Position numbers and translations under genes: made by a program | Notes under the pieces: model-generated | Database searches by the model: none | The model's input: the letters and a program-made list of their open reading frames with translations, nothing else | What the model was told of the DNA's origin: nothing | Source: Gilvimarinus algae | GTDB lineage: Bacteria; Pseudomonadota; Gammaproteobacteria; Pseudomonadales; Cellvibrionaceae | Direction: 5' to 3' | Assembly: GCF_030518215.1 (NCBI RefSeq) | Contig: NZ_JAULRT010000031.1 | Location: 1 to 64,000, forward strand | Length of the DNA: 64,000 nucleotides | In this document: one piece after another, positions 24,425-41,393 of the stretch | Layout of the letters: each line of letters starts with the position of its first letter | Position numbering within the stretch: the stretch's first letter is position 1

Positions 24425-25840
24425 ATGAGTGCACTCACATTACACCCCGATCGTCTGTTCCCCGCTGATGAGACTACGCGTGCCATCGCGCGCCGACTCT
24501 ATCAGGAAATCAAGGATCTGCCCATCGTCAGCCCCCACGGCCACACCGATCCCTCTTGGTTTGCCAACAACGAACTCTTCCCCAATCCGGCTGAGTTGCT
24601 GATCAAGCCCGACCATTACGTATTCAGAATGCTATACAGCCTGGGCGTTTCCATGGCGGATTTGGGGGTGCCCAGCAAGGCGGGGCTGCCGGTAGAGCAG
24701 GATCCGAAAAAAATCTGGCGCCTGTTCGCCAAACATTACAACGCCTTTCGCGGCACGCCTTCGCGCATGTGGCTCGACTACGTCTTTAAAGAAGTCTTTG
24801 GTCTGGATCAGTTGCTCAGCGTCGACACAGCCGATGCTTACTACGAGCGCATCAATTCGTGCCTGCAGACTGAGGACTTCCGCCCGCGCGCCCTGATGGA
24901 GCGTTTCAACATTGAATGGCTGGCGACCACGGAATCGCCGCTGGATGATTTGCGCCATCACAAGAAAATCCGCGAAAGCGGCTGGAAGGGCGGCGTGATT
25001 ACCGCTTACCGCCCCGACCCTGTGGTCGACCCTGAGTTCGAAGGCTTTGCCGATAACGTCGCCCGCCTGGGAGAGATCACCGGCGAAAACACCAGCGACT
25101 GGGCAGGTTACCTGGCGGCACTGAAAAACCGGCGGGAGTACTTCAAGTCCTTCGGCGCCACCTCAACCGATCACGGCCACCCTACGGCGCGCACCTCGGA
25201 TTTGTCGGTTGCCGAGTGCGAAGCCCTGTTTGCCAGAGCGTTGGCCGGCAAGTGCTCGCGCGAAGAGGCCGAAGTTTTCCGTGGTCAGATGCTCACCGAA
25301 ATGGCGGGCATGAGCATTGAAGATGGTTTGGTCATGCAGATTCACCCGGGCTCATTTCGCAACCATAACCCCCATGTGTTTACCAACTTCGGTCGCGACA
25401 AGGGTGCCGACATTCCATCGCAAACTGAGTACGTTAATGCACTCAAGCCGCTGCTGGATAAATACGGCAACGACAATCGCCTGTCGATTATTTTGTTTAC
25501 CCTCGATGAAACCGTCTACTCCCGGGAGCTTGCGCCCTTGGCGGGCCACTATCCGGTGCTGAAGTTGGGTCCCTCCTGGTGGTTCCACGATAGCCCGGAA
25601 GGCATGCGCCGCTTCCGCGAGCAGATCACGGAAACCGCGGGCTTCTATAACACTGTGGGTTTTAACGACGATACCCGCGCCTTTCTGTCCATCCCCGCGC
25701 GTCACGATGTGGCTCGTCGCATGGATTGTAATTTCCTCGCGCGGCTGGTCGCCGAGCATCGCCTGCCGGAAGACGAGGCGCAGGAGGTGGCCATTGACCT
25801 GACTTACCGTCTGGTTAAAAAGGCCTACAAGCTCGACTGA
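24425..25840 (+). CDS. uxaC: Uronate isomerase (glucuronate/galacturonate isomerase)
   Basis: The 471-residue protein is full length for UxaC. It has the metal-binding SPHGHTDPSW (H38, H40) of the amidohydrolase-like fold. Family stretches MWLDYVFKEVFGL, RFNIEWLATTESPLDDL, VMQIHPGSFRNHNP and KLGPSWWFHDSPEGMRRFRE follow. It converts D-galacturonate to tagaturonate (and glucuronate to fructuronate) in the cytoplasm, the first step after uptake of pectin monomers. It heads an operon with the reductase and the pectinesterase. The ribosome site ahead of its ATG is weak. Confidence 0.95.
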   Translation: MSALTLHPDRLFPADETTRAIARRLYQEIKDLPIVSPHGHTDPSWFANNELFPNPAELLIKPDHYVFRMLYSLGVSMADLGVPSKAGLPVEQDPKKIWRLFAKHYNAFRGTPSRMWLDYVFKEVFGLDQLLSVDTADAYYERINSCLQTEDFRPRALMERFNIEWLATTESPLDDLRHHKKIRESGWKGGVITAYRPDPVVDPEFEGFADNVARLGEITGENTSDWAGYLAALKNRREYFKSFGATSTDHGHPTARTSDLSVAECEALFARALAGKCSREEAEVFRGQMLTEMAGMSIEDGLVMQIHPGSFRNHNPHVFTNFGRDKGADIPSQTEYVNALKPLLDKYGNDNRLSIILFTLDETVYSRELAPLAGHYPVLKLGPSWWFHDSPEGMRRFREQITETAGFYNTVGFNDDTRAFLSIPARHDVARRMDCNFLARLVAEHRLPEDEAQEVAIDLTYRLVKKAYKLD

Positions 25841-25864
25841 ATGCGAGGTATAAAGGATCAAGTT

Positions 25865-27340
25865 ATGCAACGTTTGAACAACAACACTGTGCAGATGCTG
25901 GCCGATGTGGCCAGCCTGCCGGCTTACGAGCGCGACGCGCAACAGGCAGGCATCCTGCATCTGGGTATCGGAGCCTTTCACCGTGCCCACCAGGCCTGGT
26001 ACACCGAAGCGCTGCTGAACAAGGGCGCACAGAACTGGCAAATAATCGGCGCCAGCCTGCGCTCTGCCACGGTCAAAGATCAGCTGGCTGGGCAGGATGG
26101 TCTCTATACCATCGTCGAGCGCGGACCCGATGGTGAAAAATTTCAGGTGGTCGGTGCCGTGAAAGACGTACTGGTGGGGCCGCAGGCGCCCGCTACGCTG
26201 CTTGAGGCGATGAGCCATCCCGCGATTAAAATTGTCTCGTTGACGGTGACGGAAAAAGGTTATTGCCACGATCCGGCCAGCGGCAACCTCAATGCTTCGC
26301 ACCCCGATATTGTCCACGACCTGGCCAACCCCGAGACACCACGCTCCGCCATTGGCTATATCGTCAGCGCGCTCAATGTTCGACGCTTGGCGGGTACCCA
26401 GAGCTTTACCGTGCTCAGTTGCGACAACCTGCCCAACAATGGCGAGGTATTGGAAAAGGTCGTGCTGCAATACGCCGATAAACTCGATGGCGACTTGGCC
26501 GCCTGGATTCGCGCTAACACGACTTTTCCCTGCACTATGATTGATCGCATTGTGCCGGCCACCACCGATACCGATCGCCAGGAGCTTGAGGGCAAGCTCG
26601 GTTTGCGCGATGAGGGTATGGTGCTGGCCGAGCCTTTCAGTCAGTGGGTGATTGAAGACAAGTTCTGCTCCGATAGACCCGCCTGGGAAGACGTGGGTGC
26701 CTTGTTGGTGGATGATGTCCACGCCTATGAAATCATGAAGCTGCGCCTTCTCAACGGCAGCCACTCACTGCTCGCCTACACCGGTTATCTGGCCGGGTTT
26801 GACTACGTCAGCGAAGTGATGCGCGAGCCGGTGCTGGCCAAGCTTTGCCAGGTGTTTATGGATCGCGAAGTCGGTCAGACGGTGCAGGTGCCGGCGGGTT
26901 TTGATATGGAAGAGTATAAAGTACAGCTGCGCGAGCGCTTTTCCAATCCAGGTCTCAAGCACCGCACCTGGCAAATTGCCATGGACGGTTCGCAAAAGAT
27001 TCCCCAGCGCTGGCTGCAGACTCTCCAGGCTCAGTTAGAGGGCGAGGGTAATATCGACCTCTTGTGTCTGGCCCTGGCCGCCTGGATTCGCTACGTCGGT
27101 GGCACGGATGAAAAAGGTCAGAGCATTGATGTCCAGGATCCTCTTGCGGCCGAGCTTCGCTCGCTGTGCGAGGAGCATCACAATGACCCGGTCGCCAGGG
27201 TCAATGCAGTCTTGTCAGTGGAAGCGGTTTTCCCGCCGGCTATTGCCAACAGTGAATCGGTGCGCGCGATCACCGCCGACTGGCTGACACGGATTCAAAA
27301 CCAGGGTGTGTTGGCGGCGGTGAAGGCGGTGCTGTCATGA
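25865..27340 (+). CDS. Tagaturonate/fructuronate reductase (mannitol dehydrogenase family)
   Basis: The start at ATG 25865 follows AAAGGA; an earlier ATG directly after the uxaC stop has no ribosome site. The 491-residue protein has the NAD-binding LHLGIGAFHRAHQAWY, the middle SCDNLPNNGEVL and the catalytic-domain KLRLLNGSHSLLAY of the polyol-specific long-chain dehydrogenases. UxaB and UxuB both belong here. The sequence feels closer to UxuB/mannitol dehydrogenase. The only downstream dehydratase in the window is altronate dehydratase (uxaA), which would need altronate from tagaturonate. Which substrate it uses therefore cannot be settled by eye. It overlaps the pectinesterase by four bases. 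Confidence 0.88.
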   Translation: MQRLNNNTVQMLADVASLPAYERDAQQAGILHLGIGAFHRAHQAWYTEALLNKGAQNWQIIGASLRSATVKDQLAGQDGLYTIVERGPDGEKFQVVGAVKDVLVGPQAPATLLEAMSHPAIKIVSLTVTEKGYCHDPASGNLNASHPDIVHDLANPETPRSAIGYIVSALNVRRLAGTQSFTVLSCDNLPNNGEVLEKVVLQYADKLDGDLAAWIRANTTFPCTMIDRIVPATTDTDRQELEGKLGLRDEGMVLAEPFSQWVIEDKFCSDRPAWEDVGALLVDDVHAYEIMKLRLLNGSHSLLAYTGYLAGFDYVSEVMREPVLAKLCQVFMDREVGQTVQVPAGFDMEEYKVQLRERFSNPGLKHRTWQIAMDGSQKIPQRWLQTLQAQLEGEGNIDLLCLALAAWIRYVGGTDEKGQSIDVQDPLAAELRSLCEEHHNDPVARVNAVLSVEAVFPPAIANSESVRAITADWLTRIQNQGVLAAVKAVLS

Positions 27341-28470
27341 TAAGCCGGGCGCGCATGGCTCATTTGTTCGGCGCAAAGGCGTTGGTGCTGGCGCTGTGTT
27401 GCGCTGTGGCCAGCGCCTATGGCGAGCAAGCGGTTTATCAGGCGCTGGTTGCGCCAGCGGGCAGCGAGCTAGTCGCACAGTATCCGGCGTTGCCGCGCTA
27501 TGGCTCTGTTAATGGTGCCTTGAAGGCTGGCCACCTGCGCATCGCGATTGCCCCAGGCGAGTACTATGAAAAGCTCACCATTGAGCGCGACGCGGTGGTG
27601 TTGACCGGCATTGGCGAGATGCGGCCACGCATCACCTTTGATGCCTACGCCAGTATGGCCGGTGTCTATCATCGTGATGATTGGGGCACCCCCGGTTCGG
27701 CGACGCTGACCGTTAACGCGGTGGGCGTCCAGTTGCACAATCTGCACATCGTCAACAGCTTCGACTTTCTGAGCAACGATGCCCGCGATAGCGAAGACCC
27801 GGCCCGGGTCCGTCACGCGCAGGCGGTGGCACTGTTGCTGGATAAAGACAGTGACCGTACGCTGATCACCGACAGCGTTATTGAGGGGTACCAGGACACG
27901 CTCTTTGCCGACGGTGGCCGCAGCTACATCAAAAACAGTCGTATCAGTGGCAATGTGGATTTCATCTTCGGCGATGGCCTGGTTGTTTTAGATCAATGCC
28001 GAATTGTCTCTCTCGCGCGCGCAAAAGACTTTGAGCCGGGTGAGGTGCAGGGGCACATTAGCGCGCCTTCAACTCATATTGGGCAGCCCTATGGCCTAGT
28101 GTTTATCAACGCCCGGCTTGAGCGCGAGGCGGGTGTGCCGCAAAACAGCGTTTCTCTGGGCAGGCCCTGGCATCCGACCACCACCTTCGCCGATGGCCGC
28201 TACGCTGACCCGGACGCTATTGGCTCGGCTATTTATATCGATAGCTGGATGGATGCGCACATCCGTCAAGAGGGCTGGGCAAGCATGAGAGGTACCGCCC
28301 GGGACGGCACCAAATCGCGGGTATTCACGCCGCAAGAATCCCGCTTTTACGAGGTGGGCTCGACGGGGCCGGGCGCTGCGACTGATGAGGCGCGCCCGAC
28401 TCTGCCGGAGACTGAGCTGAAAACGCTGCAAAAATTTATCGGTCAGCTTAGAGGCGAGTTTGGTCTTTAA
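27337..28470 (+). CDS. Pectin methylesterase (CE8)
   Basis: The 377-residue exported enzyme has a signal peptide (GAKALVLALCCAVASAYG). Right-handed beta-helix CE8 motifs are QAVAL (Q162), GYQD (D187), NVDFIFG (D208) and LGRPW (R276); these are the two catalytic aspartates and the substrate arginine. It removes methyl esters from homogalacturonan so that GH28 and lyases can act. It overlaps the reductase gene by four bases (ATGA), an unusual fusion of an extracellular pectinase into the intracellular uronate operon. Confidence 0.92.
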   Translation: MISRARMAHLFGAKALVLALCCAVASAYGEQAVYQALVAPAGSELVAQYPALPRYGSVNGALKAGHLRIAIAPGEYYEKLTIERDAVVLTGIGEMRPRITFDAYASMAGVYHRDDWGTPGSATLTVNAVGVQLHNLHIVNSFDFLSNDARDSEDPARVRHAQAVALLLDKDSDRTLITDSVIEGYQDTLFADGGRSYIKNSRISGNVDFIFGDGLVVLDQCRIVSLARAKDFEPGEVQGHISAPSTHIGQPYGLVFINARLEREAGVPQNSVSLGRPWHPTTTFADGRYADPDAIGSAIYIDSWMDAHIRQEGWASMRGTARDGTKSRVFTPQESRFYEVGSTGPGAATDEARPTLPETELKTLQKFIGQLRGEFGL

Positions 28471-29614: not shown

Positions 29615-29635
29615 GCCCCAGGCTTGTGCGGCGAG

Positions 29636-29666
29636 GCGTCGGCAGATGGCTGCCGGCGCTTTTTTG
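29636..29666 (+). terminator. Terminator after the TonB-like gene
   Basis: GCGTCGGCAG-ATGG-CTGCCGGCGC pairs with one wobble and is followed by six T. Confidence 0.88.
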
Positions 29667-29882
29667 TTGCGCCCGCCAGTCTTCGCTCGCACCACCGTTT
29701 ATCACCTTGTGAGAATCCTGCACCATTGTGGAGGATTTTCCGTTCCTGCTCGTCCTAGATCCCATGGCCGAACCTCACATGGGTTCGCTCAGGGGGCCTC
29801 AAGAGAGACTCCTTAAATAATAAAACGCCAGCGCTTGGCCACGGGCGTCATAGACAGTGCGCTGATAGATCGGAGAAGCCAA

Positions 29883-32800
29883 ATGAGTCTTGTCGCATGT
29901 TTACCTTCTTTTAACCGGCGGTGGAGCCGCTATTTGGGCGCGGCTGCCCTGGCAGCCGCCTCGGTGTTCGGGGCGTCGTTATCGACGGCGCAGACCGTGC
30001 CGGATGAAGCAGACTTTCAGCGCGAAGTGGTCGCTGAAGGGCTGGATCTGCCGATGGAGTTTGAGATTTCAGACGACGGCCGGGTCTTTATCGCCAGCAA
30101 GTGTGGCGCCGTCTATGCCTGGGATCTGGATACCGGCACGCCATCGCAGGTGTCCACTGTCCCCAATGTGCGCTGCGTGTTTGAAGACGGCCTGCTGAGC
30201 GTGGCGCTGGACCCGAATTTCACGCAAAACAGCTACATCTATTTTCAGTACACCTCGCCCGGCAGCCTTACCCGGGTGTCGCGCTTTCGGGTAAACCCCG
30301 ATAACACCCTGGATACAGGTTCCGAATCCATCTTGCTGCAGTGGACCACGGGCGATGAAGCCCACGGCCATATGGGCGGTTCTCTGCAGTTTGATACCCA
30401 GGGCAATCTGCTGATCACCACCGGCGATAACAAGGCCGCCGGTGGTTACTTTCAGCCGTCGGCTCAGGGGACGTCCGGCAACACCAACGATTTGCGTGGC
30501 AAGATCCTGCGCATCACGCCCACCGAAGACGGCGGCTATACCATTCCGCCGGGCAACTTGTTCGCGGGTGATGCCCTGCACCGGCCTGAAATTTACGGTA
30601 TGGGGTTTCGCAACCCCTTCCGCCTGAATATCGACCCGGCTACCAACTGCCTGTACGTCGGCGATATTGGTCCCGATGCCTCCACCGACAGCGCCGAGGG
30701 ACCGGGCGGGCTGGATGAGATCAACGAGATGTGCAGCGCCGGTAACTACGGCTGGCCCTGGATCATCGGCTATAACCAGCCCTACGCGGGCTTTGATCCG
30801 AACAACATCGTCAACAACGCCTCAGACAATACCGGCGCCACGAACCTGCCGGACTCGGTGGGTGCGATCTGGACCATTCGCCACCAGGCGACTATGGCCG
30901 GTCCGGTGTATCGCGTTGACGAGAGCATCGACAACCCCTTTAAGCTGCCCGCTTATTACAACGGCAAGCTGATTTTCTGGGACTTTAACAGCAGCCGTTT
31001 CAGCACCATTGATCTGGCCTCGCCAGACTCGCCCCCGGTAGCCGAGCCCTTTCCCATCAATACTCAGGGTTTCCAAGGCGCTATCGATGTCGAGTTGGAC
31101 CCGCGCACGCATCAGTTGTATGTCCTGCAGTGGGGTTCTGGCTGCTGTGATAAAGAGCCCTATGGCGGTGGCGCGCTCTACCGTTTTGACTATGTGGGCA
31201 ATCGGGATCAGGGCACCAATGTTGCTCTGAGCGGTTTCGCTACGGCAAGCTCTGATGTGGCCGGTAACCTGGCAGCCTACGCCATCGATGGGGATCCGAC
31301 CACTCGCTGGGAGAGTGAAGCTTCCGATCCGCAGACTCTGACCGTTGAGCTGGCTGAGTCCACGCCCATTGGTTCGATTTCCATTCTTTGGGAAGGTGCC
31401 TATAGCTCACGCTATTTGATTGAAGGCTCAAACGACGGCCAGAGTTGGACGCCGCTCGCCGAAGAGTTAGCGGGTTCGGGTGGTACCCGTTTGCACATCA
31501 TCGACTCCGCCGAGAGCTACCGCTTTGTGCGGCTCACCGGCACCGAGCGGGGCACGGGCTATGGCCACTCGATTTTTGAGTTTGAAGTCTACGCCGGTGA
31601 GAATGACGAGCCGGAGGAGCTGACCGAGTACGCCTATCTGAATATGCCGCGCACCCTGGATGCCAACTTTACCGGCGTGCCTCAATTGCTGTCGCAAACC
31701 GGTGCCTTTACCGATACCGCCAACCTGGTGCCCAGTGAGAACCTGATTCCGTTTGAGCCCAACAGCAAGCTCTGGTCGGACCGGGCGTTAAAAGCCCGCT
31801 GGCTGTCAGTGCCCGCCGAGCGGCAGATCAACTGGCATGAAACGGACAACTGGACCTACCCACAAGGCACGGTGGCCGTGAAGCACTTCGAGCTGCCCCT
31901 GGTCGGCGACGGCCCGGGCCTGACCAAGCGTCTGGAGACCCGCTTTATTGTGATGCAGGCCAACGGCCGCGCCTATGGCGTGACCTACAAGTGGCGCGAG
32001 GACAACAGCGATGCCGAACTGCTGACCGCTGGCCTGTTGGAAGACATAGTCGTGACTCGCGAGGACGGCAGCAGCTGGACGCAGACCTGGGCTTATCCGA
32101 GCCCCACCGAGTGTATCGACTGCCACAACGCCAACTCGTCGCAGATTCTGGGCTTGTCCACCCGCCAGTTGAATGGCGAGTTTAACTATCCGGGGTCAGG
32201 CAGTGAAAACCAATTGGTGCACTGGAATAACCTCGGGCTGTTTAACCCCGGCTTTGACAACGCGCAAGTGGGCAGCTTTGACAAAATGGTGGCCATTACC
32301 GACACCAGTGCCTCGCTGCAAGAACGGGTGAAATCTTACCTGGATACCAACTGCGCCCACTGCCACGGTACAGGCAATGGCGGCTCACAGTGGGATGCTC
32401 GCTACAACACGCCTCTGGCAGAGATGCGTGTGGTGGGCGAGGCCACCACGGGTATTCGCAACTACCTGAATTACTACGGCATCGAAAACGCCGAGGTGGT
32501 CACCCCAGGCGCACCCCACGAGTCGATTCTCTACATCCGCGACAAGAGTGAAAACCCGGACGATCGCATGCCACCCATCGGCCGCGCGCTGGAGCACCCG
32601 GAGTATATCGCGGTGCTGGAGCAGTGGATCGACAGCCTCGACGGTCCCGTCGACCCGGATCCGGTGCTGGTCAGTGCCAATGCCAGTGCCTCAGCCAGCA
32701 CGGTAGAGGGTGAGTATGTGGCCGACTTTGCCACCGATGGCGACCCCAACACCCGCTGGTCCAGTGCCTTTGAAGACCCGCAGACACTGACGGTGGATTT

Positions 32801-35800
32801 GCAGGAGGTCTATGGCGTAGAGCGCATCGTTCTCAACTGGGAGGCCGCCTACGGCAGCGCCTATGTGATTGAGGGCTCGCTCGATGGCCAGAGCTGGGAA
32901 GTGGTCTACAGCCAAACCGCAGGCAGCGGTGGTGTGGAAACCCTGGACAACCTCTCGGGCAACTACCGCTACCTGCGCCTGACCGGTACCGAACGTGGCA
33001 CCGAATGGGGTTACTCGCTGTGGGAGTTTGAAGTCTATGGTGGTGATCCGGCGCCCGCGGCAACCTTGGCGATCGACTCGCCCGCGGTTGGCCAGGTGTA
33101 CGCCGGTAACACGGCCGTGAGCTTGGCAGTGTCCGTCTCCGATAGTGGTTGGTTTAGCGGCGGCGCAGGCTATCGCTATCAACTCGATGGCGGCACCAGC
33201 GTCTCTGTTACGAACGCCAGCGCAGTCAACCTCGGTGTGCTGCCGGCGGGTACGCATCAGTTGCAGGTGCAGTTGGTGGGCGCCACAGGCAATGCGGTGG
33301 GCGATGCCCAAACGGTCAGCTTTAGCGTGCAGGCACCGGCGCAGGCTGAACTGGTATCCGAAGGTAAATCGGTCACTGTGTCCAGCGTGGAGGGCGATTA
33401 CGTCGGCGCGCTGGCCGTGGATGGCGACCCGACCACCCGCTGGTCAAGCGAGTTTGAAGATCCGCAATCGATCGAGGTGGATCTGGGCGAAGCCTACAAC
33501 CTCGATCGTATCGAACTTCTGTGGGAAACCGCTCACGCCAGCGCTTACGTGATTGAGGGCTCCGCTACTGGCAGCAGCTGGACCGAACTGGTAAATGTGA
33601 CTGCCAGCACCGGCGGGGAAGAAGTGCACGCAGGGCTGGCTGGCAGCTACCGTTACATTCGCTTAACCGGTACCGCCCGCGCTACCGAGTGGGGTTACTC
33701 ACTGTTTGAACTGCAGGTGTGGGGCAGCTCGGGTGAGGTCGTGCCTGGTCTGACCATCACATCGCCGCTTGCCGGCCAGCAGTTCACCGAGGGCGATAGC
33801 ATCGGTGTGACCGCCAGCGCTTCCGATGGCAGCTGGTTCAGTGCCGGCAGAGGTATGCTGGTCAGTGTTGACGGCGGGGCGGCCAATTTTGTTGCCGGCG
33901 CCACCACCAGCCTTGGCGCCCTGCCCGTGGGCAACCACAGCATTAACGTGCAGCTGGCCGATGCCTCCGGTAATGCGGTGGGCGCGATGAGCAGTGTCAA
34001 TGTTGAGGTCAATGAGCGCACGACCAACGAGGCCGAGCTATTATCACTGAATAAAGTCGTCACCACCTCGGAAATTGAGGGTGACTTTATTGGCGCCAAT
34101 GCGGTAGATGGTGATCTTGGCACCCGCTGGAGCAGTGCTCACGGCGAAGACAACCACTATCTACAGATTGATCTCGGTGCCAGCTACAGCATCGGCCGCG
34201 TGGAGCTGGAGTGGGAAGCCGCTTATGCCACGGGTTATCGCATCGAGGTATCTGACGATCAAGACGCCTGGAGCGAGGTGTACAGCACCAGCAGCGGCGA
34301 CGGCGGCATGGATGCGGTTGATGTCTCTGCCAGTGGTCGCTATGTCCGCCTCACCGGTACCGCTCGTGCCACTCCTTATGGTTATTCTCTGTGGGAGATG
34401 CGGGTCTACGGTGAAGGGGAGGTGACCCCCGGTGCCGACATCAGCATCGTCTCACCGGCCGATGGCGCCAGCTTTGATGAAGGCCAGGCCGTGAGCTTCT
34501 CCGTCGCCATCAGCGATGCCGATTGGTTTACCGACGGCGGCAGCTATCGCTACACCCTCGATGGCAATGCGCCGGTCGAGCGCACCAATGGTGCGGCCGT
34601 ATCGCTCGGCGCATTGAGTGTTGGCAGTCACACCCTTGAGGTGTCCCTGTCGAGCGGTGGCAGCGAAGTCGGCGAGAGCGCGAGCATCACTTTCTATGTC
34701 AGCGGTGGCGACACACCCGTGACGCCCAGCCCTGCACAGCTGAGCCCGGTGCTCGCCACAGCTTCGTCGGAGCAGGGCGGCAACCTCGCCAGCTACACCA
34801 TCGACGGTATTTATAACTCGCGCTGGGAAAGTGAGTCCGCAGACCCGCAGACCCTTGAGCTGGATATGGGCGAGAGTGTCTACCTGACCCGTGTGCGCCT
34901 GGATTGGGAGGCGGCCTACGCTCGTGCCTACCGGCTGGAAGTGTCGGCCGATGGCGACGACTGGACGCCCATCTACAGCGAAAGCAGTGGCGATGGTGGT
35001 ATTGACGATATCGCCCTGAACGGTGAGCAGGGGCGCTACCTGCGCGTCTACGGCACCGAACGGGCCACCGGCTACGGCTACTCGCTGTTTGAGGTGGAAG
35101 TGTTCGGTTTGCCGGCCGATCCTTCGCTGGCGCTCATCAATGTGCAGAGCCCCGCCAACGGAGCGAGCATTGCCGAGAGTGACGAGGTGATTCTATCGGT
35201 GAGCATTAGCGACAGCAGTTGGCTCGCCAGCGGTGGCGCCTATCGCTATCGCCTGGATGGTGGTGCACCGGTCACGGTGAACAGCCTGGCCGATATCAAC
35301 CTTGGCACCCTGCCCACTGGGCGGCACACCCTCGCGGTCACTCTGGTGGACAGCAATGGCGCTGAGGTCAGTGTGCCGCGCACCCACAGCTTCACCGTGA
35401 ACTGTGGCGCCGATTGCCCGAACGTATTGGTGTTCTCCAAAACCTCCGGGTTCCGCCACGGCTCCATTCCGGCCGGGATCGCGATGGTCGAGGCGATCGC
35501 CAATGACTACGGCTACGGCTTTACCGCCAGCGAGGATGCCGCGTTGTTTACCGAGGCCGGCCTCGCCCAGTACGACACCATCGTGTTTATGAACACCACT
35601 GGCGATATCTTTACCGATAGCCAAAAAGCGGCGTTCCGCAGCTACATAGAAAACGGTGGTGGCTATGTGGGCAGCCATTCGGCGGCCGATACCGAGCACA
35701 GCTGGGAGTGGTACACCGATGTGCTCTTGGCCGGCGCTGAGTTTATTCACCACGGCGATGGCATACCCATGGCGCGTGTTGAAATCGAGCAGCAAAGCGA

Positions 35801-36080
35801 TCCGCTGGTGAGCCATATCGGCAGCGAGTGGAATCTGGCCGACGAATGGTACTTCTGGGAGTCGAGCCCCCGCGGTGTGGGGAATGTTCAGGTGCTGGGC
35901 AATCTCGATCGCAGCAGCTACAGCTCCAACTACCCGGTTGAAGATCACCCGGTGATCTTCAAGAACACCGTGGGTAGTGGCCGCGTGTTCTACACCGCTA
36001 TTGGTCATGTGGATGCGAACTTCTCCGACCCGAATATGGTGGAGATGATGCGCAAGGCCATTGAGTGGACGTCTCAGTAA
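29883..36080 (+). CDS. Giant secreted sugar dehydrogenase / c-haem / discoidin / ThuA protein
   Basis: ATG 29883 has CGGAGAAG upstream and gives a signal peptide ending STAQ. The 2,065-residue product is modular. Residues about 40-440 are a PQQ-type glucose/sorbosone dehydrogenase propeller (GDEAHGHMGGSLQFD, YGMGFRNPFRL, GNYGWPWIIG). Five F5/8-type C (discoidin) modules lie near 445-573, 930-1056, 1155-1281, 1385-1511 and 1619-1743. Between the first two is a haem region with CIDCH (744-748), CAHCH (824-828) and a DRMPPIGR that could give the Met ligand. Ig-like linkers (SPANGASI, ALPVGNHS) separate the later modules. The end (1841-2065) is a ThuA domain (VLVFSKTSGFRHGSI, GHVDANFSDPNMVEMM). 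This suggests surface or extracellular oxidation of polysaccharide-bound sugar with electron transfer. The substrate is unknown. Confidence 0.9.
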   Translation: MSLVACLPSFNRRWSRYLGAAALAAASVFGASLSTAQTVPDEADFQREVVAEGLDLPMEFEISDDGRVFIASKCGAVYAWDLDTGTPSQVSTVPNVRCVFEDGLLSVALDPNFTQNSYIYFQYTSPGSLTRVSRFRVNPDNTLDTGSESILLQWTTGDEAHGHMGGSLQFDTQGNLLITTGDNKAAGGYFQPSAQGTSGNTNDLRGKILRITPTEDGGYTIPPGNLFAGDALHRPEIYGMGFRNPFRLNIDPATNCLYVGDIGPDASTDSAEGPGGLDEINEMCSAGNYGWPWIIGYNQPYAGFDPNNIVNNASDNTGATNLPDSVGAIWTIRHQATMAGPVYRVDESIDNPFKLPAYYNGKLIFWDFNSSRFSTIDLASPDSPPVAEPFPINTQGFQGAIDVELDPRTHQLYVLQWGSGCCDKEPYGGGALYRFDYVGNRDQGTNVALSGFATASSDVAGNLAAYAIDGDPTTRWESEASDPQTLTVELAESTPIGSISILWEGAYSSRYLIEGSNDGQSWTPLAEELAGSGGTRLHIIDSAESYRFVRLTGTERGTGYGHSIFEFEVYAGENDEPEELTEYAYLNMPRTLDANFTGVPQLLSQTGAFTDTANLVPSENLIPFEPNSKLWSDRALKARWLSVPAERQINWHETDNWTYPQGTVAVKHFELPLVGDGPGLTKRLETRFIVMQANGRAYGVTYKWREDNSDAELLTAGLLEDIVVTREDGSSWTQTWAYPSPTECIDCHNANSSQILGLSTRQLNGEFNYPGSGSENQLVHWNNLGLFNPGFDNAQVGSFDKMVAITDTSASLQERVKSYLDTNCAHCHGTGNGGSQWDARYNTPLAEMRVVGEATTGIRNYLNYYGIENAEVVTPGAPHESILYIRDKSENPDDRMPPIGRALEHPEYIAVLEQWIDSLDGPVDPDPVLVSANASASASTVEGEYVADFATDGDPNTRWSSAFEDPQTLTVDLQEVYGVERIVLNWEAAYGSAYVIEGSLDGQSWEVVYSQTAGSGGVETLDNLSGNYRYLRLTGTERGTEWGYSLWEFEVYGGDPAPAATLAIDSPAVGQVYAGNTAVSLAVSVSDSGWFSGGAGYRYQLDGGTSVSVTNASAVNLGVLPAGTHQLQVQLVGATGNAVGDAQTVSFSVQAPAQAELVSEGKSVTVSSVEGDYVGALAVDGDPTTRWSSEFEDPQSIEVDLGEAYNLDRIELLWETAHASAYVIEGSATGSSWTELVNVTASTGGEEVHAGLAGSYRYIRLTGTARATEWGYSLFELQVWGSSGEVVPGLTITSPLAGQQFTEGDSIGVTASASDGSWFSAGRGMLVSVDGGAANFVAGATTSLGALPVGNHSINVQLADASGNAVGAMSSVNVEVNERTTNEAELLSLNKVVTTSEIEGDFIGANAVDGDLGTRWSSAHGEDNHYLQIDLGASYSIGRVELEWEAAYATGYRIEVSDDQDAWSEVYSTSSGDGGMDAVDVSASGRYVRLTGTARATPYGYSLWEMRVYGEGEVTPGADISIVSPADGASFDEGQAVSFSVAISDADWFTDGGSYRYTLDGNAPVERTNGAAVSLGALSVGSHTLEVSLSSGGSEVGESASITFYVSGGDTPVTPSPAQLSPVLATASSEQGGNLASYTIDGIYNSRWESESADPQTLELDMGESVYLTRVRLDWEAAYARAYRLEVSADGDDWTPIYSESSGDGGIDDIALNGEQGRYLRVYGTERATGYGYSLFEVEVFGLPADPSLALINVQSPANGASIAESDEVILSVSISDSSWLASGGAYRYRLDGGAPVTVNSLADINLGTLPTGRHTLAVTLVDSNGAEVSVPRTHSFTVNCGADCPNVLVFSKTSGFRHGSIPAGIAMVEAIANDYGYGFTASEDAALFTEAGLAQYDTIVFMNTTGDIFTDSQKAAFRSYIENGGGYVGSHSAADTEHSWEWYTDVLLAGAEFIHHGDGIPMARVEIEQQSDPLVSHIGSEWNLADEWYFWESSPRGVGNVQVLGNLDRSSYSSNYPVEDHPVIFKNTVGSGRVFYTAIGHVDANFSDPNMVEMMRKAIEWTSQ

Positions 36081-36090
36081 AACCTATCGC

Positions 36091-36124
36091 AAGCGCGCCC
36101 TAGTCTCTAGGGCGCGCTTTGTGT
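36091..36124. terminator. Terminator between convergent genes
   Basis: AAGCGCGCCCTAG-TCT-CTAGGGCGCGCTT is a perfect 13-base stem followed by TTGTGTTTT. It serves the giant gene; the stop codon of the converging gene lies in its right arm. Confidence 0.85.
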
Positions 36125-36712
36125 TTTCCCTTCCCGCATAACCATCGATTCCCACAGCGCTTTGATTTCTTCGCGGTAGCGCTCAAGGCGTGTCCGTGCC
36201 ACAGGTACCGCAATAAGCCAGACGTAAGCCTCAGGGGCCTGCACCAGACAATAGCTGACCGCTTGGCGGTTATAGCCCTCGTTGAGCGCCAGAGTGCGGC
36301 ACTCTGTAGGCATGCCACTTTGCGTGGCAAAAGTGAACCTGTCTGTGATTGAGGCGTTGTCTGGCGTGCGCCGCCGCTTGATGGTCTGCATTAGGTCGAA
36401 CCAGAGCACCTGGGTGCTCTTGTGGACGGCTTTAACCCTTGCGCTCTGGATCAGGTACACCGGTTCGCCGTCCAGCAGCCGGCCCAGTGCCGGGCTTTGG
36501 GGATTGGTGGTGGCTAGGGATTTGAAGACGGCACCGGCCGGGGGCGTGACGCAGATCTCGTCTGTCAGACAAACAAGCGCCAAAGCTTTGCCACTTTGCG
36601 CAATTGCCAAAGGTGGCATACACAGCGCCAAAAAACTTGATATACCGATACTGACAACTGCAATCAGACGTTGATGGCAACGGGTGTGAGCCGACGGTGT
36701 ACGAACGAACAT
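36107..36712 (-). CDS. Exported protein of unknown function
   Basis: The start at 36712 gives a signal peptide (LIAVVSIGISSFLALCMPPLAIAQ); a start at 36847 would add an unlikely leader. The mature protein (201 residues in all) contains four cysteines (LVCLTDEIC, TECRTL, SYCLVQAPE), which could form two disulphides in the periplasm. No family is recognised. It converges on the giant secreted protein and is divergent from the sigma-factor gene, so it may share the intergenic region with it. Confidence 0.7.
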   Translation of the reverse strand: MFVRTPSAHTRCHQRLIAVVSIGISSFLALCMPPLAIAQSGKALALVCLTDEICVTPPAGAVFKSLATTNPQSPALGRLLDGEPVYLIQSARVKAVHKSTQVLWFDLMQTIKRRRTPDNASITDRFTFATQSGMPTECRTLALNEGYNRQAVSYCLVQAPEAYVWLIAVPVARTRLERYREEIKALWESMVMREGKTQSAP

Positions 36713-36858
36713 GGGGTTTCTTCTTAGCGTTATGGAGGAATTCCCGGCCTCTTTCGTCTTCCTGTTACCGCGAAAGAATAATGCCACGTCGTCTGCGTGA
36801 TTGAAATGCCCGTGGCCTTGGGCACAACGAATAATAACGACAGGCATCAGGTGGCGAC

Positions 36859-37416
36859 ATGCACTACTCTCGTGGTATTGAACAATTTTACTTTAAGGCC
36901 CTGGGGCTGATTACCCGCACGGTGGGAAAGGTCGTGCCGCCGGACGATGTGGAAGATATTGTGCAGGAGACCTATGTCAAGGCGTGCCAGATCCGCGGCG
37001 ATCACAGCATCCAGAATCCGCAGGCCTTTCTGGTGAGAATGGCTCGCAACCTGGCGCTCGATCACGTCAAGCGCGCCGAGTTCCGGCTTGCCTCCAGTTT
37101 GACCGGCTGCGCCGTAGAGGTGGAGGCGCAACTGACAACACCCGAGGATGCGACTGTGCAGGTGGTTGCCAGTGATGAGGAGTTTGCCAATTTTTGCGAA
37201 GCGGTGCGCCAGTTGCCCCTGCAAAGCCGACGGGCGTTTGTGTTGAAAAAAGTCTACGGTTATTCGCAAAAAGAAATTGCCAAAAAGCTTGGTATCAGCG
37301 AAAGCACGGTGGAAAAGCACATTGCCACGGGGCTGCAGCGCTCGCGGCAGTACATGAAGGAGAAAACCATGGCCGATTCGGCAAGGGTGGTGACAACGCG
37401 GGGGCGACATGACTAA
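36859..37416 (+). CDS. FecI-like ECF sigma factor
   Basis: A 185-residue ECF sigma factor. Region 2 is DDVEDIVQETYVKACQI and FLVRMARNLALDHVKR; region 4 is LPLQSRRAFVLKKVYGYSQK followed by GISESTVEKHI. CAGGTGG precedes the ATG. It overlaps the FecR-like gene by eight bases and, by family rule, is held by FecR until the cognate receptor meets its ligand. The adjacent receptor carries the STN signalling domain needed for this. Its targets probably include that receptor. Confidence 0.92.
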   Translation: MHYSRGIEQFYFKALGLITRTVGKVVPPDDVEDIVQETYVKACQIRGDHSIQNPQAFLVRMARNLALDHVKRAEFRLASSLTGCAVEVEAQLTTPEDATVQVVASDEEFANFCEAVRQLPLQSRRAFVLKKVYGYSQKEIAKKLGISESTVEKHIATGLQRSRQYMKEKTMADSARVVTTRGRHD

Positions 37417-38467
37417 TGTCTATCGCTTTCGCAGCAGGGATGATATCGATGCCCAGGCGGCCCGCTGGATTACCGCCATGGATCGAGAACTGAACGAGCG
37501 TGAACACAAACAACTGCAGCGCTGGCTCTCACAAAACCCGGCACACAGGGCTGCCCTGATCGACATGGCCGAGTGCTGGGATAAGCTTAACAGCTTGTCG
37601 CGCCTGGCAAGCTTGTTCCCTGAGGAAGACATCGGCCGACGCCGCCAAAGTGCACTGCGACGCTATGGCGCGGTGGCGGCATCCACATTGGCGCTGGCGC
37701 TCGCCACCCTCTTGGGGGTGTTTGTCAGCGGCGGTGACTGGCACCGATTGCTGCCCGGTATCAATGGCTATGGCGACAGTTATCTGGTCACTCAGGTGGG
37801 TGAGCGTACCACCTACGCGCTGGACGATGGCAGCCAGCTGACCCTGAACACCAACAGCCAGGTTCGGCTGGATTTTACGCCCCACTACCGCGACTTGTAC
37901 CTGGGCCGGGGTGAGTTGCATGTGCAAGTGGCAAAAGACAAAAGTCGGCCCTTGAGAGTGTTCTCGGCCGATAAGATGGTTGAGGCCGTGGGTACGGCGT
38001 TCAACCTTGAGCTTATGGAGGGCGATAAGCTCGAGCTGATTGTGACCGAGGGCAAGGTGAAGGCGTCGCGGGTGAAAGAATCGGTTAGTGGTGCCCGCGC
38101 AAGCGCTAAGGCACCCGCCAGTTTTGAACCCTTGGCCAACTCGGTGTCTGTGGGTGAGCGCGTGGTGCTTAGCGATCAAAGGCCTGAAGTTGAGTCAGTC
38201 AGTGAATCGGAGCTGCGTTCTCTGCTCAGCTGGAAAAGCGGCGAGCTGATCTTTCGCGGCGAAACGCTGGATGTGGCAATTGCCGAAGTCAGCCGCTACA
38301 CCAGCACTCAGATTCTGTTGTCCGATGCGGCGCTCAGTGATGTCAAAATTGCCGGGCTCTATCGTGCCGGTGATGTTGATGGTCTTTTGGAAAGCCTAAA
38401 GAAAAATTTTTCAATTACACACAAGTATTTGAACGCGAACACCATTGCGCTGTATCGAACAGAATAA
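37409..38467 (+). CDS. FecR-like anti-sigma factor
   Basis: The 352-residue protein has the cytoplasmic DUF4880-type head (AARWITAMDRELNEREHKQL and HRAALIDMAECWDKL) that binds the sigma factor. A membrane helix follows near 92-108, then the periplasmic FecR domain (YLVTQVGERTTYALDDGSQL, AVGTAFNLE), and a C-terminal STN-like region (LDVAIAEVSRYTSTQILLSD). It links the receptor in the outer membrane with the sigma factor inside. Confidence 0.92.
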   Translation: MTNVYRFRSRDDIDAQAARWITAMDRELNEREHKQLQRWLSQNPAHRAALIDMAECWDKLNSLSRLASLFPEEDIGRRRQSALRRYGAVAASTLALALATLLGVFVSGGDWHRLLPGINGYGDSYLVTQVGERTTYALDDGSQLTLNTNSQVRLDFTPHYRDLYLGRGELHVQVAKDKSRPLRVFSADKMVEAVGTAFNLELMEGDKLELIVTEGKVKASRVKESVSGARASAKAPASFEPLANSVSVGERVVLSDQRPEVESVSESELRSLLSWKSGELIFRGETLDVAIAEVSRYTSTQILLSDAALSDVKIAGLYRAGDVDGLLESLKKNFSITHKYLNANTIALYRTE

Positions 38468-38507
38468 TCGCTCTGCGTTTTCAAACCACTTTACCCCGAG
38501 AATAATA

Positions 38508-41393
38508 ATGCGCGACCAGCAGTGGGGGAAATGCCCGGACGTTTCGTCTTTCTCTCTGGTGGGGCGGCAGCCCGCCCGGGACGCTGTAAAAAAATTGCTT
38601 TGCAATTTCTTGATTCTCTTTTTCGTTTTTTGCGTTGGTATGAATTGTTTTGCTCAAGCCAGCATTCAACAAAAAAGAGTTGTTTTCAGTATTCCCGAAC
38701 AACGAGCTGACGTGTCATTGACCGAGTTTGCCTCCCAGGCAAAGATGACCCTGGTGTTTCCGTACGACAGTGTCAGTCGAGAAACGGCCAATGCGTTGCA
38801 GGGAAGATACACCATTGCCAAGGCTTTGGAGATCCTGCTCAAGGGAACCGCTCTTGAATACTCCGTCAGTGAAGACGGTCAGCTCACCATACTGAAGGAT
38901 CATTCAAAGAGAGAGAGCGATGATATGAATAAAAAATACCTGTCTCTGGCGGTAGCCGGAGCCTTGAGTACTTTGAGCAGTGCGACCTCAATGGCGCAAG
39001 AGGCCAGCCAGGTTTCGGCCAGCGGTCTTGAAGAAATCATGGTGACCGCAAGGCGCAAAGAAGAAAACTCCCAGCAGGTGCCCGACACCGTGGTGGCGTT
39101 CTCCAGCGAAACCATTGAGCGGGCAAATATTGAGGCGGCGCGTGATATCACGGTAAGAATTCCCAACGTGGCCATCACCGAATCCCTGAGCCCGACCTCC
39201 ACGTTCCTAATTGTTCGCGGTATTTCTTCCGTACGTAACTCAGAACCGGCTGTTGCCGTTGTTGTCGATGGTGTGCAAATTGGCAGTGCCTCGGAAGTCT
39301 CTCAATCGTTTTACGACATTCAGCAGATTGAACTGCTCAAGGGGCCGCAGGGCGCTCTCTATGGGCGCAACGCCCTCGGTGGCGCTCTGATTGTGACCTC
39401 GAAAAAACCCACCAGTGATTTTGAAGGCAAGTTCACTGTTGGCGGCGGCAGTGGGGATTTGTTTGAAGTTACCGGCTCTTTGTCCGGTGCCCTGACAGAT
39501 GAGCTGCTGTTTCGCTTTGCCGGTAATCACCGCTCCTTTGGCGGCACCATTGAGAATGAATACTTAAATCGCGTCTATGAGAGAAACGGCCGGGCGGTCA
39601 CAGGCTCGGCGCCGAGCAACAGCTACATGGACTTTGAAGAGAACCGCGATTTTCGCGCACAGCTGCTGTGGGAGCCGACCGACGCCACTCGTTTTGACTT
39701 GCGCTACTCACACAATGGCTTGGAAGCTGGCGCCATGTGGTACCGCAACCTCTATCGCCTGGAAACCGACCCGAATGAAGTCTACGAGTTTCCCATTAAT
39801 TCCAATGGTAACCCTACCGCTCACCGCACGATTGATACGGGCACCTTGAAAATTGAGCATGATTTTGATTTTGCCACCTTCACATCGGTTACCAACAGTA
39901 CCGATACCAACGAGCGCTATGGTGTGGCTGGCGAAACCAAGGGGCATGATCGCACGGGTAATGTTCTGTTTTTTACCGAGCCTTTCGTCGATGAGTTCAT
40001 CGCGGGGCTGGACTCGGAGGTAGACCGCGACTTTTTCAGTGCACAGCTGGGAGATTGGGCCGCCGGCAACTTTGTCGGTTCGGATCAGTACTATGATGTG
40101 CAAACGCTCTCACAGGAGTTTCGCCTGACCGGCTCGGCGGAAAAACTCGACTATGTGCTGGGCGCCTATGCGCTTTTGACCGACAGAGCGGATACCTTGC
40201 GCTCCACCTGGGAAACGCCCAACGGTGAACCTTTCGATTGCCAGCCCGCCTACCCGGGTGGTCCGGTGGTTACGGACTTCACGTGCAACGGTTTAATCGA
40301 TGCCACCCAAAATGAGCAGGACAATGAAGCCTGGGCCGTATTTTTCAGCACCGATTATGACCTGTCCGATACTCTCACCCTCACGCTCGCCGGCCGCTAC
40401 GATGTGGACCGGCGCGAAGTCACCCGTATCGATGGCCCAACTGTGGACACCAACGGCTTGGGGGTGGGCAACAAGTGTGACGCCGAAACGGACCCGGAAA
40501 ACTGTGCGGCGGCCGGCTCTACCATCAGCAAAACCTTTGATGCCTTCCAGCCAAAAGTATCGCTGGCCTATACACCGAGCGACACACTGACGCTTTACGG
40601 TACAGCGGCGCGCGGTTTTCGCAGCGGCGGCTTTAACGCCTCAGGTGCCCTGCTGGCGGACAGTTACGACCAGGAGACACTGGACAGCTTTGAGGTCGGT
40701 TTCAAGTCCACACTGCTCGGCAATCAGCTGCGTCTGAACGGTGCGCTTTTTCACCAGCGCTATGAAAACGCCCAGCAGTTTGAGTTTGACGGCAATATTT
40801 TTGTCCAGAGTCTGTACAACATCCCCAAAAGCGAGATCAACGGGGTGGAGCTCAGCCTAGACTACGCGGTGACGGACAATCTGCTGGTCACGGCCGGGGT
40901 CGGTATTATGGAGTCCGAAATCAAACAGTTTGATACCGAAATCCGCGACCGCATGTACTCCGAGCTGATGGCTCGCACCGCCAATACGGTGAAATTGCCA
41001 GAGGGGACGGCACAGGCCTTTGAGAACAACTTTGATGGCGAAAAAATGCCCAATTTCCCGCACCAGTCGGCCAATGTGTCAGTACGTTACGATCTGCCCA
41101 TCGGCGGTGATGACAACCTGATCACCCAGATCGACTACAGCTATACCGCCGATCGCTACTGGTGGATTGACGGGCAGGATGTACAGGACAATGTCGGTCT
41201 TCTCGCGGGCAGCCTCACCTATGTGCTTAACGACAGCCTTGAGTTCCAGCTGTGGTGCAAGAACTGTCTCGATGAGATTTACGACTCCGAGTACGCACCC
41301 ACCGAAAAAGAACTCTTTGGTGGCGCGGCCAAGGACGTGGCCTACCGAGCGCGCGGCCGCACCTTTGGTCTGCAGGCCAACTATCGGTTTTAA
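38508..41393 (+). CDS. TonB-dependent receptor with STN signalling domain and an internal signal peptide
   Basis: The likely start is ATG 38508 (961 residues). A long basic leader and hydrophobic stretch (FLILFFVFCVGMNCFAQ) precede an STN domain at about 55-130 (FSIPEQRADVSLTEFASQAK, ALQGRYTIAKALEILL). An in-frame ATG at 38925 follows GAGAGAG and begins a second perfect signal peptide (MNKKYLSLAVAGALST then SMAQE). Plug (about 180-300) and 22-strand barrel domains follow, ending in aromatic F (NYRF). The full form would fit FecIR surface signalling; the internal start would give a plain receptor. The ligand is not evident from the sequence. Confidence 0.9.
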   Translation: MRDQQWGKCPDVSSFSLVGRQPARDAVKKLLCNFLILFFVFCVGMNCFAQASIQQKRVVFSIPEQRADVSLTEFASQAKMTLVFPYDSVSRETANALQGRYTIAKALEILLKGTALEYSVSEDGQLTILKDHSKRESDDMNKKYLSLAVAGALSTLSSATSMAQEASQVSASGLEEIMVTARRKEENSQQVPDTVVAFSSETIERANIEAARDITVRIPNVAITESLSPTSTFLIVRGISSVRNSEPAVAVVVDGVQIGSASEVSQSFYDIQQIELLKGPQGALYGRNALGGALIVTSKKPTSDFEGKFTVGGGSGDLFEVTGSLSGALTDELLFRFAGNHRSFGGTIENEYLNRVYERNGRAVTGSAPSNSYMDFEENRDFRAQLLWEPTDATRFDLRYSHNGLEAGAMWYRNLYRLETDPNEVYEFPINSNGNPTAHRTIDTGTLKIEHDFDFATFTSVTNSTDTNERYGVAGETKGHDRTGNVLFFTEPFVDEFIAGLDSEVDRDFFSAQLGDWAAGNFVGSDQYYDVQTLSQEFRLTGSAEKLDYVLGAYALLTDRADTLRSTWETPNGEPFDCQPAYPGGPVVTDFTCNGLIDATQNEQDNEAWAVFFSTDYDLSDTLTLTLAGRYDVDRREVTRIDGPTVDTNGLGVGNKCDAETDPENCAAAGSTISKTFDAFQPKVSLAYTPSDTLTLYGTAARGFRSGGFNASGALLADSYDQETLDSFEVGFKSTLLGNQLRLNGALFHQRYENAQQFEFDGNIFVQSLYNIPKSEINGVELSLDYAVTDNLLVTAGVGIMESEIKQFDTEIRDRMYSELMARTANTVKLPEGTAQAFENNFDGEKMPNFPHQSANVSVRYDLPIGGDDNLITQIDYSYTADRYWWIDGQDVQDNVGLLAGSLTYVLNDSLEFQLWCKNCLDEIYDSEYAPTEKELFGGAAKDVAYRARGRTFGLQANYRF

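Follow-up and report, generated by a model that had tools for sequence, protein, structure and literature searches.

Can a single bacterial polypeptide hold on to a polysaccharide, oxidise it and lead the electrons away through haems of its own? This question is raised by a gene of Gilvimarinus algae (Cellvibrionaceae), located within a stretch of 64,000 nucleotides (positions 1 to 64,000 of contig NZ_JAULRT010000031.1, referred to here as the window). The gene, at 29883-36080 on the forward strand, is a single uninterrupted open reading frame (ORF) which on translation gave 2,065 amino acids plus stop. An earlier note on this DNA had described its product as an intact protein joining a sugar-dehydrogenase propeller, a c-type haem domain, five discoidin modules and a C-terminal ThuA domain, and this was borne out by the ORF and by its Pfam and NCBIfam matches. 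Here we show that this conserved redox fusion is real; no characterised member was found in the literature searched. As aligned with its classical relatives, the propeller is devoid of key residues of the pyrroloquinoline quinone (PQQ) cofactor site, and the fusion should not be filed as a classical PQQ enzyme. Statements on published work refer to excerpts of the papers cited.

Domain order and conservation of the fusion

Pfam analysis of the 2,065-residue protein revealed a GSDH propeller (best stretch 54-303, 3.9e-41; 141.9 bits against a gathering cut-off of 25), five F5/8C discoidins (3.8e-108) and, at residues 1847-2063, a ThuA domain (PF06283) covering model positions 1-209 of 209 (3.9e-60; 204.1 bits against a cut-off of 33.4). 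Two Big_7 matches, absent from the earlier note, marked immunoglobulin-like stretches separating the later discoidins. The haem domain aligned with TIGR03806 (SO2930) over model positions 2-314 of 314, but with 224.9 bits, below the cut-off of 313.3. The module of 4zy9, the best PDB match of discoidin 4, is presumably chitosan-binding. A related discoidin from Paenibacillus binds chitin, lichenan, Avicel and laminarin (PMC2789033). Judged by sequence pattern rather than by a signal-peptide program, the N-terminus is signal-peptide-like, and the 2,065-residue protein is probably secreted.

The fusion ORF is far beyond chance, since an ORF of 2,083 codons from Gilvimarinus gilvus aligned to residues 13-2065 with 75% of positions identical. 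The order GSDH, discoidin, di-haem domain, discoidin(s), ThuA was present in at least 17 ORFs from 14 of 144 genomes of the family, belonging to four genera; two candidates were scored per genome, among the matches listed, and 17 is thus a lower bound. Both the CxxCH sites that had been predicted at 744 and 824 were found and are kept in 17/17 fusion ORFs, as are each of four ThuA motifs and the candidate Met ligand, identified as Met896 in the motif DRMPP. Five discoidins were counted in four ORFs (those of Gilvimarinus) and four in ten others; one ORF has 3 and two have 2. In L058:5871-11585 (genome G003) the frame extends further upstream and takes in another signal-like start and one of its four discoidins ahead of the propeller, and the Ala-Gln cleavage-type pattern sits within the longer frame; as read from the sequence, either the propeller would be internal in a longer fusion or two genes would share one frame.

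A scan of one genome per species, which relies on short exact patterns and overlooks some relatives, gave end-to-end relatives in G. gilvus (75%) and G. agarilyticus (71%; best segments in both cases). The order was not found in 320 other genomes sampled from the class (321 including the own genome; E <= 1e-60), and partial matches were obtained in four other genomes of this sample. The earlier note had allowed that the architecture might prove widespread and characterised; the exact order was seen solely in this bacterial family. In the literature searched, no paper was found joining ThuA with discoidin and PQQ, or ThuA with sorbosone dehydrogenase, and the term 'ThuA domain' was not found in the literature matches listed (best 20 of 46).

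Going by domain matches, similar kinds of parts recur elsewhere in other orders. Other proteins, too, combine a GSDH propeller with a di-haem domain of this type, and fusions of ThuA with GSDH occur in two orders across Gammaproteobacteria and Actinobacteria. ThuA, GSDH and cytochrome stand in another order in L063 and L064, and the own genome has a ThuA-GSDH-cytochrome ORF of 867 codons as well as a GSDH-cytochrome ORF of 891 codons. In L069 and L070, both GSDH-discoidin ORFs, five CxxCH motifs follow, giving a multihaem variation on this design.

The cofactor site of the propeller

The AlphaFold model of the propeller (seven sequences) had a predicted local distance difference test score (pLDDT) of 68.4 and a predicted template modelling score of 0.79. 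With this model, the top 35 Foldseek matches were PQQ glucose dehydrogenases (GDH) or aldose dehydrogenases (Asd) together with HHIP, at E values from 2.0e-19 to 1e-15. Chains of family AA12 started at 2.0e-10 (6h7t; 2.1e-8 for 6jt5 of Coprinopsis cinerea), well behind GDH, Asd and HHIP (2.0e-19, as for 7cgz), in a ranking made by structure comparison. Single-sequence alignments to PDB dehydrogenases stopped at residues 297-331 of about 437, and a profile-profile alignment to 22 classical dehydrogenases was therefore used to place the second half of the propeller. This set comprised BLAST hits of >160 bits to the Asd of the own genome and favours Asd-like sequences; it excluded the fused propellers, the split-gene halves L089/L099 and an unfused ORF of 414 codons, L093 (74.7 bits). 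A part of the PF07995 matches in the genomes was fetched for comparison.

The catalytic His and the Arg-Asn pair of soluble glucose dehydrogenase (sGDH; residues 144, 228 and 229) have their counterparts in all the fusion ORFs (Table 1) and were also retained in 16/16 other fused propellers, aligned singly; in the classical set, His was present in 20, Arg in 22 and Asn in 20 of the 22. Gly-Pro and Asp-Glu motifs, which we take to be parts of the GDH calcium region, are retained as well. The Arg-x-Arg that holds the PQQ carboxylates (columns taken as sGDH R406/R408, numbered after PMC6881789) is absent in 17/17 fusion ORFs, where the site reads QGAID or similar, and is present in 22/22 classical relatives and in 5/5 aligned PDB chains. 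The 17/17 count was read from the motif stretch; when the ORFs were aligned singly, the Arg columns were reached in 5/17, with no Arg. Among the 16 other fused propellers these columns were reached in 10, again with no Arg in any of the 10. The C-terminal half of the split gene L089/L099 does carry Arg-Ile-Arg. The unfused L093 has Arg at the first position only; thus an unfused propeller lacking the pair exists, which counts against a simple rule that fused means changed. Lys377 was dropped as a diagnostic residue, as Lys occurs in just 8/22 classical sequences; its equivalent in the fusion is Asn (DFNSS, 17/17).

The complete electron path from sugar to haem proposed in the earlier note is therefore upheld in part: the propeller fold, the His and the Arg-Asn stand in 17/17, whereas the Arg-x-Arg is missing in 17/17. 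Its reservation that the propeller might lack PQQ/Ca ligands likewise came half true, Arg-x-Arg being gone and the His, Arg-Asn, Gly-Pro and Asp-Glu motifs being kept.

The fusion ORFs share an invariant vicinal pair, Cys421-Cys422, in the last blade, and in the relatives with ThuA first a Cys-Cys pair lies immediately ahead of the catalytic His. From the known layout of such propellers, both places presumably face the active side. In methanol dehydrogenase, vicinal cysteines lie beside PQQ, and by a speculative analogy Cys421-Cys422 might embody the same idea. The Cys-Cys loop is poorly modelled, residues 386-392 of the model being under pLDDT 50.

Table 1. Features of the fusion gene and its surroundings (positions in the window unless a locus is named)
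Feature	Position	Strand	Basis or remark
Terminator-like hairpin, upstream, past TonB gene	29633..29662	+	hairpin scan
Shine-Dalgarno-like GGAGA	29872..29876	+	6 bases 5' of ATG 29883; read directly
Whole gene	29883..36080	+	2,065 aa plus stop
Signal-peptide-like N-terminus	29883..29990	+	Ala-Gln cleavage-type pattern ahead of propeller, 17/17 copies
GSDH-type six-bladed propeller, residues about 38-437	29994..31193	+	Pfam; AlphaFold model; Foldseek
His163	30369..30371	+	aligns with catalytic His144 of sGDH; 17/17
Arg243-Asn244	30609..30614	+	align with sGDH R228-N229; 17/17
Gly399-Ala400-Ile401, replacing classical Arg-x-Arg (sGDH R406/R408)	31077..31085	+	profile alignments, motif stretch
Vicinal Cys421-Cys422, loop after LYVL strand of last blade	31143..31148	+	invariant 17/17
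Discoidin module 1	31212..31595	+	F5/8C match
SO2930-type di-haem c-type cytochrome domain, residues 600-919	31680..32639	+	NCBIfam
Haem site 1, CIDCH 744-748	32112..32126	+	CxxCH motif
Haem site 2, CAHCH 824-828	32352..32366	+	CxxCH motif
Met896 (DRMPP), candidate distal haem ligand	32568..32570	+	17/17
Discoidin module 2	32658..33041	+	F5/8C match
Discoidin module 3	33345..33728	+	F5/8C match
Discoidin module 4	34035..34415	+	best PDB match 4zy9 (1.4e-33), glucanase/chitosanase module
Discoidin module 5	34731..35108	+	F5/8C match
ThuA domain, residues 1847-2063	35421..36071	+	Pfam; motifs
Terminator-like hairpin right behind stop codon	36091..36119	+	hairpin scan
ECF sigma factor, FecR, STN-type TonB-dependent receptor	36859..41393	+	downstream in 4/4 Gilvimarinus loci compared
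DHOR-family di-haem proteins upstream of other fusion genes	L051:17-2524, L052:109-2934, L059:3603-6287, L061:5238-7562, L062:11573-14014

Neighbouring genes, the Cellvibrio orthologue and known systems

Hairpins on both sides weakly suggest that the fusion gene would be transcribed on its own; the support is weak because the scan gave 11 terminator-like sites for this region, where shuffled sequence gave 7.9 +/- 2.4. Upstream in the window lie genes for uronate isomerase, a fructuronate-reductase type enzyme, pectinesterase and TonB. The first three (24425-28470) form a pectin/uronate catabolic cluster just upstream. Downstream are genes for an extracytoplasmic function (ECF) sigma factor, FecR, an STN-type receptor and a GGDEF protein, and a GH16-CBM6 gene. 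The trio of ECF sigma factor, FecR and STN receptor would be a surface-signalling set, its members being possible sensing and uptake partners of the fusion. An ORF of 246 amino acids on the reverse strand (36107-36847) had no Pfam match, and a relative of it lies beside the fusion gene in G. gilvus.

Many of the 17 loci belong to a single genus and do not count as independent cases. Of the 17, 11 have a TonB-dependent receptor gene downstream in the same orientation, seven adjoining the fusion gene and four, those of Gilvimarinus, after sigma factor and FecR; Pfam was run on one of the seven adjoining receptors and the others were assigned by BLAST cluster. In 5/17 loci a di-haem protein of the DHOR family is encoded in the same orientation, no more than about 4 kb upstream (Pfam run on two, the others assigned by BLAST cluster). 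It adjoins the fusion gene in L059 (with a small ORF between), L061 and L062, and lies past three opposite-strand genes in L051 and L052. Some of these proteins start lipoprotein-like, and those of L051 and L052 have, by eye, a discoidin-like N-terminal sequence; the L051 protein had no Pfam F5/8C match. They are possible electron partners of the fusion.

Genome G015 is almost certainly that of Cellvibrio japonicus, as the domain of its lytic polysaccharide monooxygenase (LPMO) is identical over 180/180 residues to PDB 5fjq (there named Cpb33A), which we take to be the C. japonicus enzyme. Its fusion orthologue, L054, combines GSDH and ThuA with four discoidins and the di-haem domain. The same genome has, on the reverse strand at L109:3270-10238, an ORF of 2,323 codons with four CBM26, GSDH, an SO2930-type di-haem domain and PSD/PSCyt domains. 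This is probably Cbp26A, because one CBM26-family Cbp is named in the excerpt of PMC12542752, and it would be a redox protein, not a mere binding protein. For the Cbp26A gene, induction on cellulose is reported, and earlier work found it on mannans, xyloglucan or starch (PMC12542752). The orthologue is possibly cbp32A or cbp32B; in the excerpt of PMC2789033, cbp32B is aligned with other discoidins.

Among known systems, the pyranose dehydrogenase of C. cinerea (CcPDH; AA8-AA12-CBM1), which drives LPMO action (PMC5960967), is likewise a single chain made up of a six-bladed propeller, a haem domain and a carbohydrate-binding module. Unlike the fusion it has haem b instead of c, a single haem and no ThuA, and it retains near its C-terminus a conserved Arg621, taken by us as the equivalent of R406, where no Arg-x-Arg is present in 17/17 fusion ORFs. 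Most likely the fusion acts in the manner of a bacterial equivalent to such fungal haem dehydrogenases. The soluble Asd enzymes (2g8s, 7cdy, 2ism, 3a9g, 3das) resemble it in propeller fold and in the His and Arg-Asn motifs, but they are short and unfused, and Arg-x-Arg occurs in each of the 22 ORFs and 5 PDB chains in the comparison. Cbp2D of C. japonicus (CBM2, X158, X183, X132), a suspected LPMO electron donor, is a large c-haem redox protein with a carbohydrate-binding module from the same bacterial family; in the excerpts it has two cytochrome domains with one CXXCH apiece, and no propeller, discoidin or ThuA is named. L109 also places a GSDH propeller and then an SO2930-type di-haem domain on a carbohydrate-binding protein, but four CBM26 replace the discoidins, PSD/PSCyt domains are added and there is no ThuA match. 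The own paralogue L002, L063, L064 and the actinobacterial L014 also unite ThuA with GSDH, the first three including a cytochrome, and their propellers also are without Arg-x-Arg where the alignment reaches; in these ThuA comes first, not last, the binding modules are fewer or different, and L014 has no cytochrome match.

What the fusion protein may do

Our preferred reading, which we put forward tentatively, is that of a polysaccharide-held oxidoreductase. Five discoidin modules would hold the probably secreted protein on its polysaccharide, and the GSDH propeller would oxidise a saccharide at the usual central site, where catalytic His and Arg-Asn are kept. Electrons would pass from the propeller to the fused di-haem c-type domain and from there to an external acceptor, which may be a copper LPMO, a DHOR-type di-haem partner or some other cytochrome. 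Imported PQQ in a non-classical clamp would most likely serve as cofactor, and ThuA would probably act on the oxidised product. In favour of this reading are the domain matches, the propeller model with its PQQ GDH and HHIP matches, the retained His and Arg-Asn, the haem motifs and DRMPP in 17/17, the propeller/di-haem fusions of other proteins, the glucan- and chitin-related kin of discoidin 4, the TonB-dependent receptors (11/17) and DHOR proteins (5/17) beside the gene, and the PqqU-like receptors in 12/14 genomes. Domains, haem motifs, conservation, absence of both arginines and predicted fold are direct results; secretion, cofactor, substrate, electron flow, acceptor and the part played by ThuA are inferred.

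Several observations weigh against this reading. Besides the missing arginines, HHIP, presumably not an enzyme, fits the propeller model about as well as the GDHs do, and the structure prediction of the cytochrome domain was of low confidence (pLDDT 29.5, four sequences). PqqE was over its cut-off in 12/144 family genomes and in 0/14 of those bearing the fusion, and PqqC matched in 0/14 of the latter; as a control, PqqC was detected in 11/12 PqqE-positive genomes. Full-length PqqU-like receptors, present in 12/14 fusion genomes, scored 394-486 bits against a cut-off of 1200. The LPMO family PF03067 was found in 13/14 fusion genomes as against 77/130 others (p = 0.01), but the link is unspecific, being 8/8 against 9/13 within genus g9 (p = 0.12); in Gilvimarinus LPMO was present in 3/4 genomes with the fusion gene and in 4/4 without it. 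On these grounds LPMO co-occurrence was rejected as support for a functional link. The C. japonicus locus has neither a downstream receptor nor a DHOR neighbour, and if the orthologue is a cbp32 gene, it is missing from the nine cbp genes named as cellulose-induced in exponential phase (PMC12542752).

Judging by these gene contents, PQQ seems not to be made by the host bacteria, which may take it up instead. Since 12 of the 14 genomes carry a full-length PqqU-like receptor, missing synthesis was dropped as proof against PQQ, and imported PQQ may be the cofactor. The own genome has such a TonB-dependent receptor (G000:C26:726556-728382; 450 bits against 1200), no PqqE or PqqC over the cut-off, and a classical Arg-x-Arg dehydrogenase (L075). 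Receptors adjoining the fusion were discarded as PqqU: the downstream ones of L051, L057 and L059 scored just 36-52 bits against the cut-off of 1200 and were nearest the B12-receptor model, yet under its cut-off, and for the upstream receptor of L050 PqqU was not among the best 25 model matches.

A classical PQQ pyranose dehydrogenase carrying haem and a binding module, in line with the proposal of the earlier note and amounting to a bacterial c-haem counterpart of fungal AA8-AA12-CBM1, appears rather unlikely to us. Parts of the same kinds do stand in one chain in CcPDH, His and Arg-Asn are kept, an importer like PqqU is common in these genomes, and AA12 binds PQQ partly through residues other than those of sGDH (PMC6881789); yet Arg-x-Arg is lost in all the fusion ORFs whereas AA12 keeps Arg621, by inference R406, and no PQQ synthesis genes were over the cut-off in 14/14 genomes. 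If the propeller were a non-catalytic binding domain like HHIP, the protein would be a polysaccharide-bound electron carrier or sensor whose cytochrome is reduced by another enzyme. The HHIP chains among the best structural matches, the loss of the arginines and the early stop of the PDB dehydrogenase alignments fit such a domain, which would not need the catalytic His and Arg-Asn that all 17 fusion ORFs and the 16 other fused propellers keep, and we regard it as unlikely.

That propeller and haems make a keto-sugar within the chain, after which ThuA opens the glycosidic bond, is improbable. In its favour, ThuA and GSDH are joined in the two orders noted above and the ThuA motifs are kept in 17/17. 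The thuEFGKAB genes are tied to 3-keto derivatives in the title of a reference of PMC10433430, and in Caulobacter the lactose 3-dehydrogenase LacABC acts before a separate DUF1080 protein that is proposed to cleave (PMC9007349). Against it, no measured activity of a ThuA domain was found in the excerpts of the literature searched, and in classical GDHs oxidation takes place at C1 of a free reducing end, which gives no chain cleavage. A long shot is a single-chain machine for attacking polysaccharides oxidatively, with a novel cofactor site having no arginine clamp and an invariant vicinal Cys pair on the same face. The propeller would oxidise a sugar unit of the bound polymer, the haems would feed LPMOs among other acceptors and ThuA would cleave the keto-sugar linkage. 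If true, this would supply the bacterial equivalent of cellobiose dehydrogenase that is missing so far, and add to hydrolysis and LPMO action a third route for breaking such glycans.

As the excerpts have it, bacteria possess no known enzyme equivalent to cellobiose dehydrogenase (PMC8981238, PMC10154616), and one of these two papers finds no clear electron-donor protein for bacterial LPMOs. C. japonicus, in which gene deletions have been made, is described as being without cellobiose dehydrogenase, the electron source of its LPMO not being identified (PMC12542752, 2025). As this deletion-amenable species has an orthologue as well as a second propeller/di-haem protein, the question is testable by gene removals. 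The fusion protein has the right kind of parts and is a candidate for the cellobiose-dehydrogenase equivalent that bacteria are said to lack.

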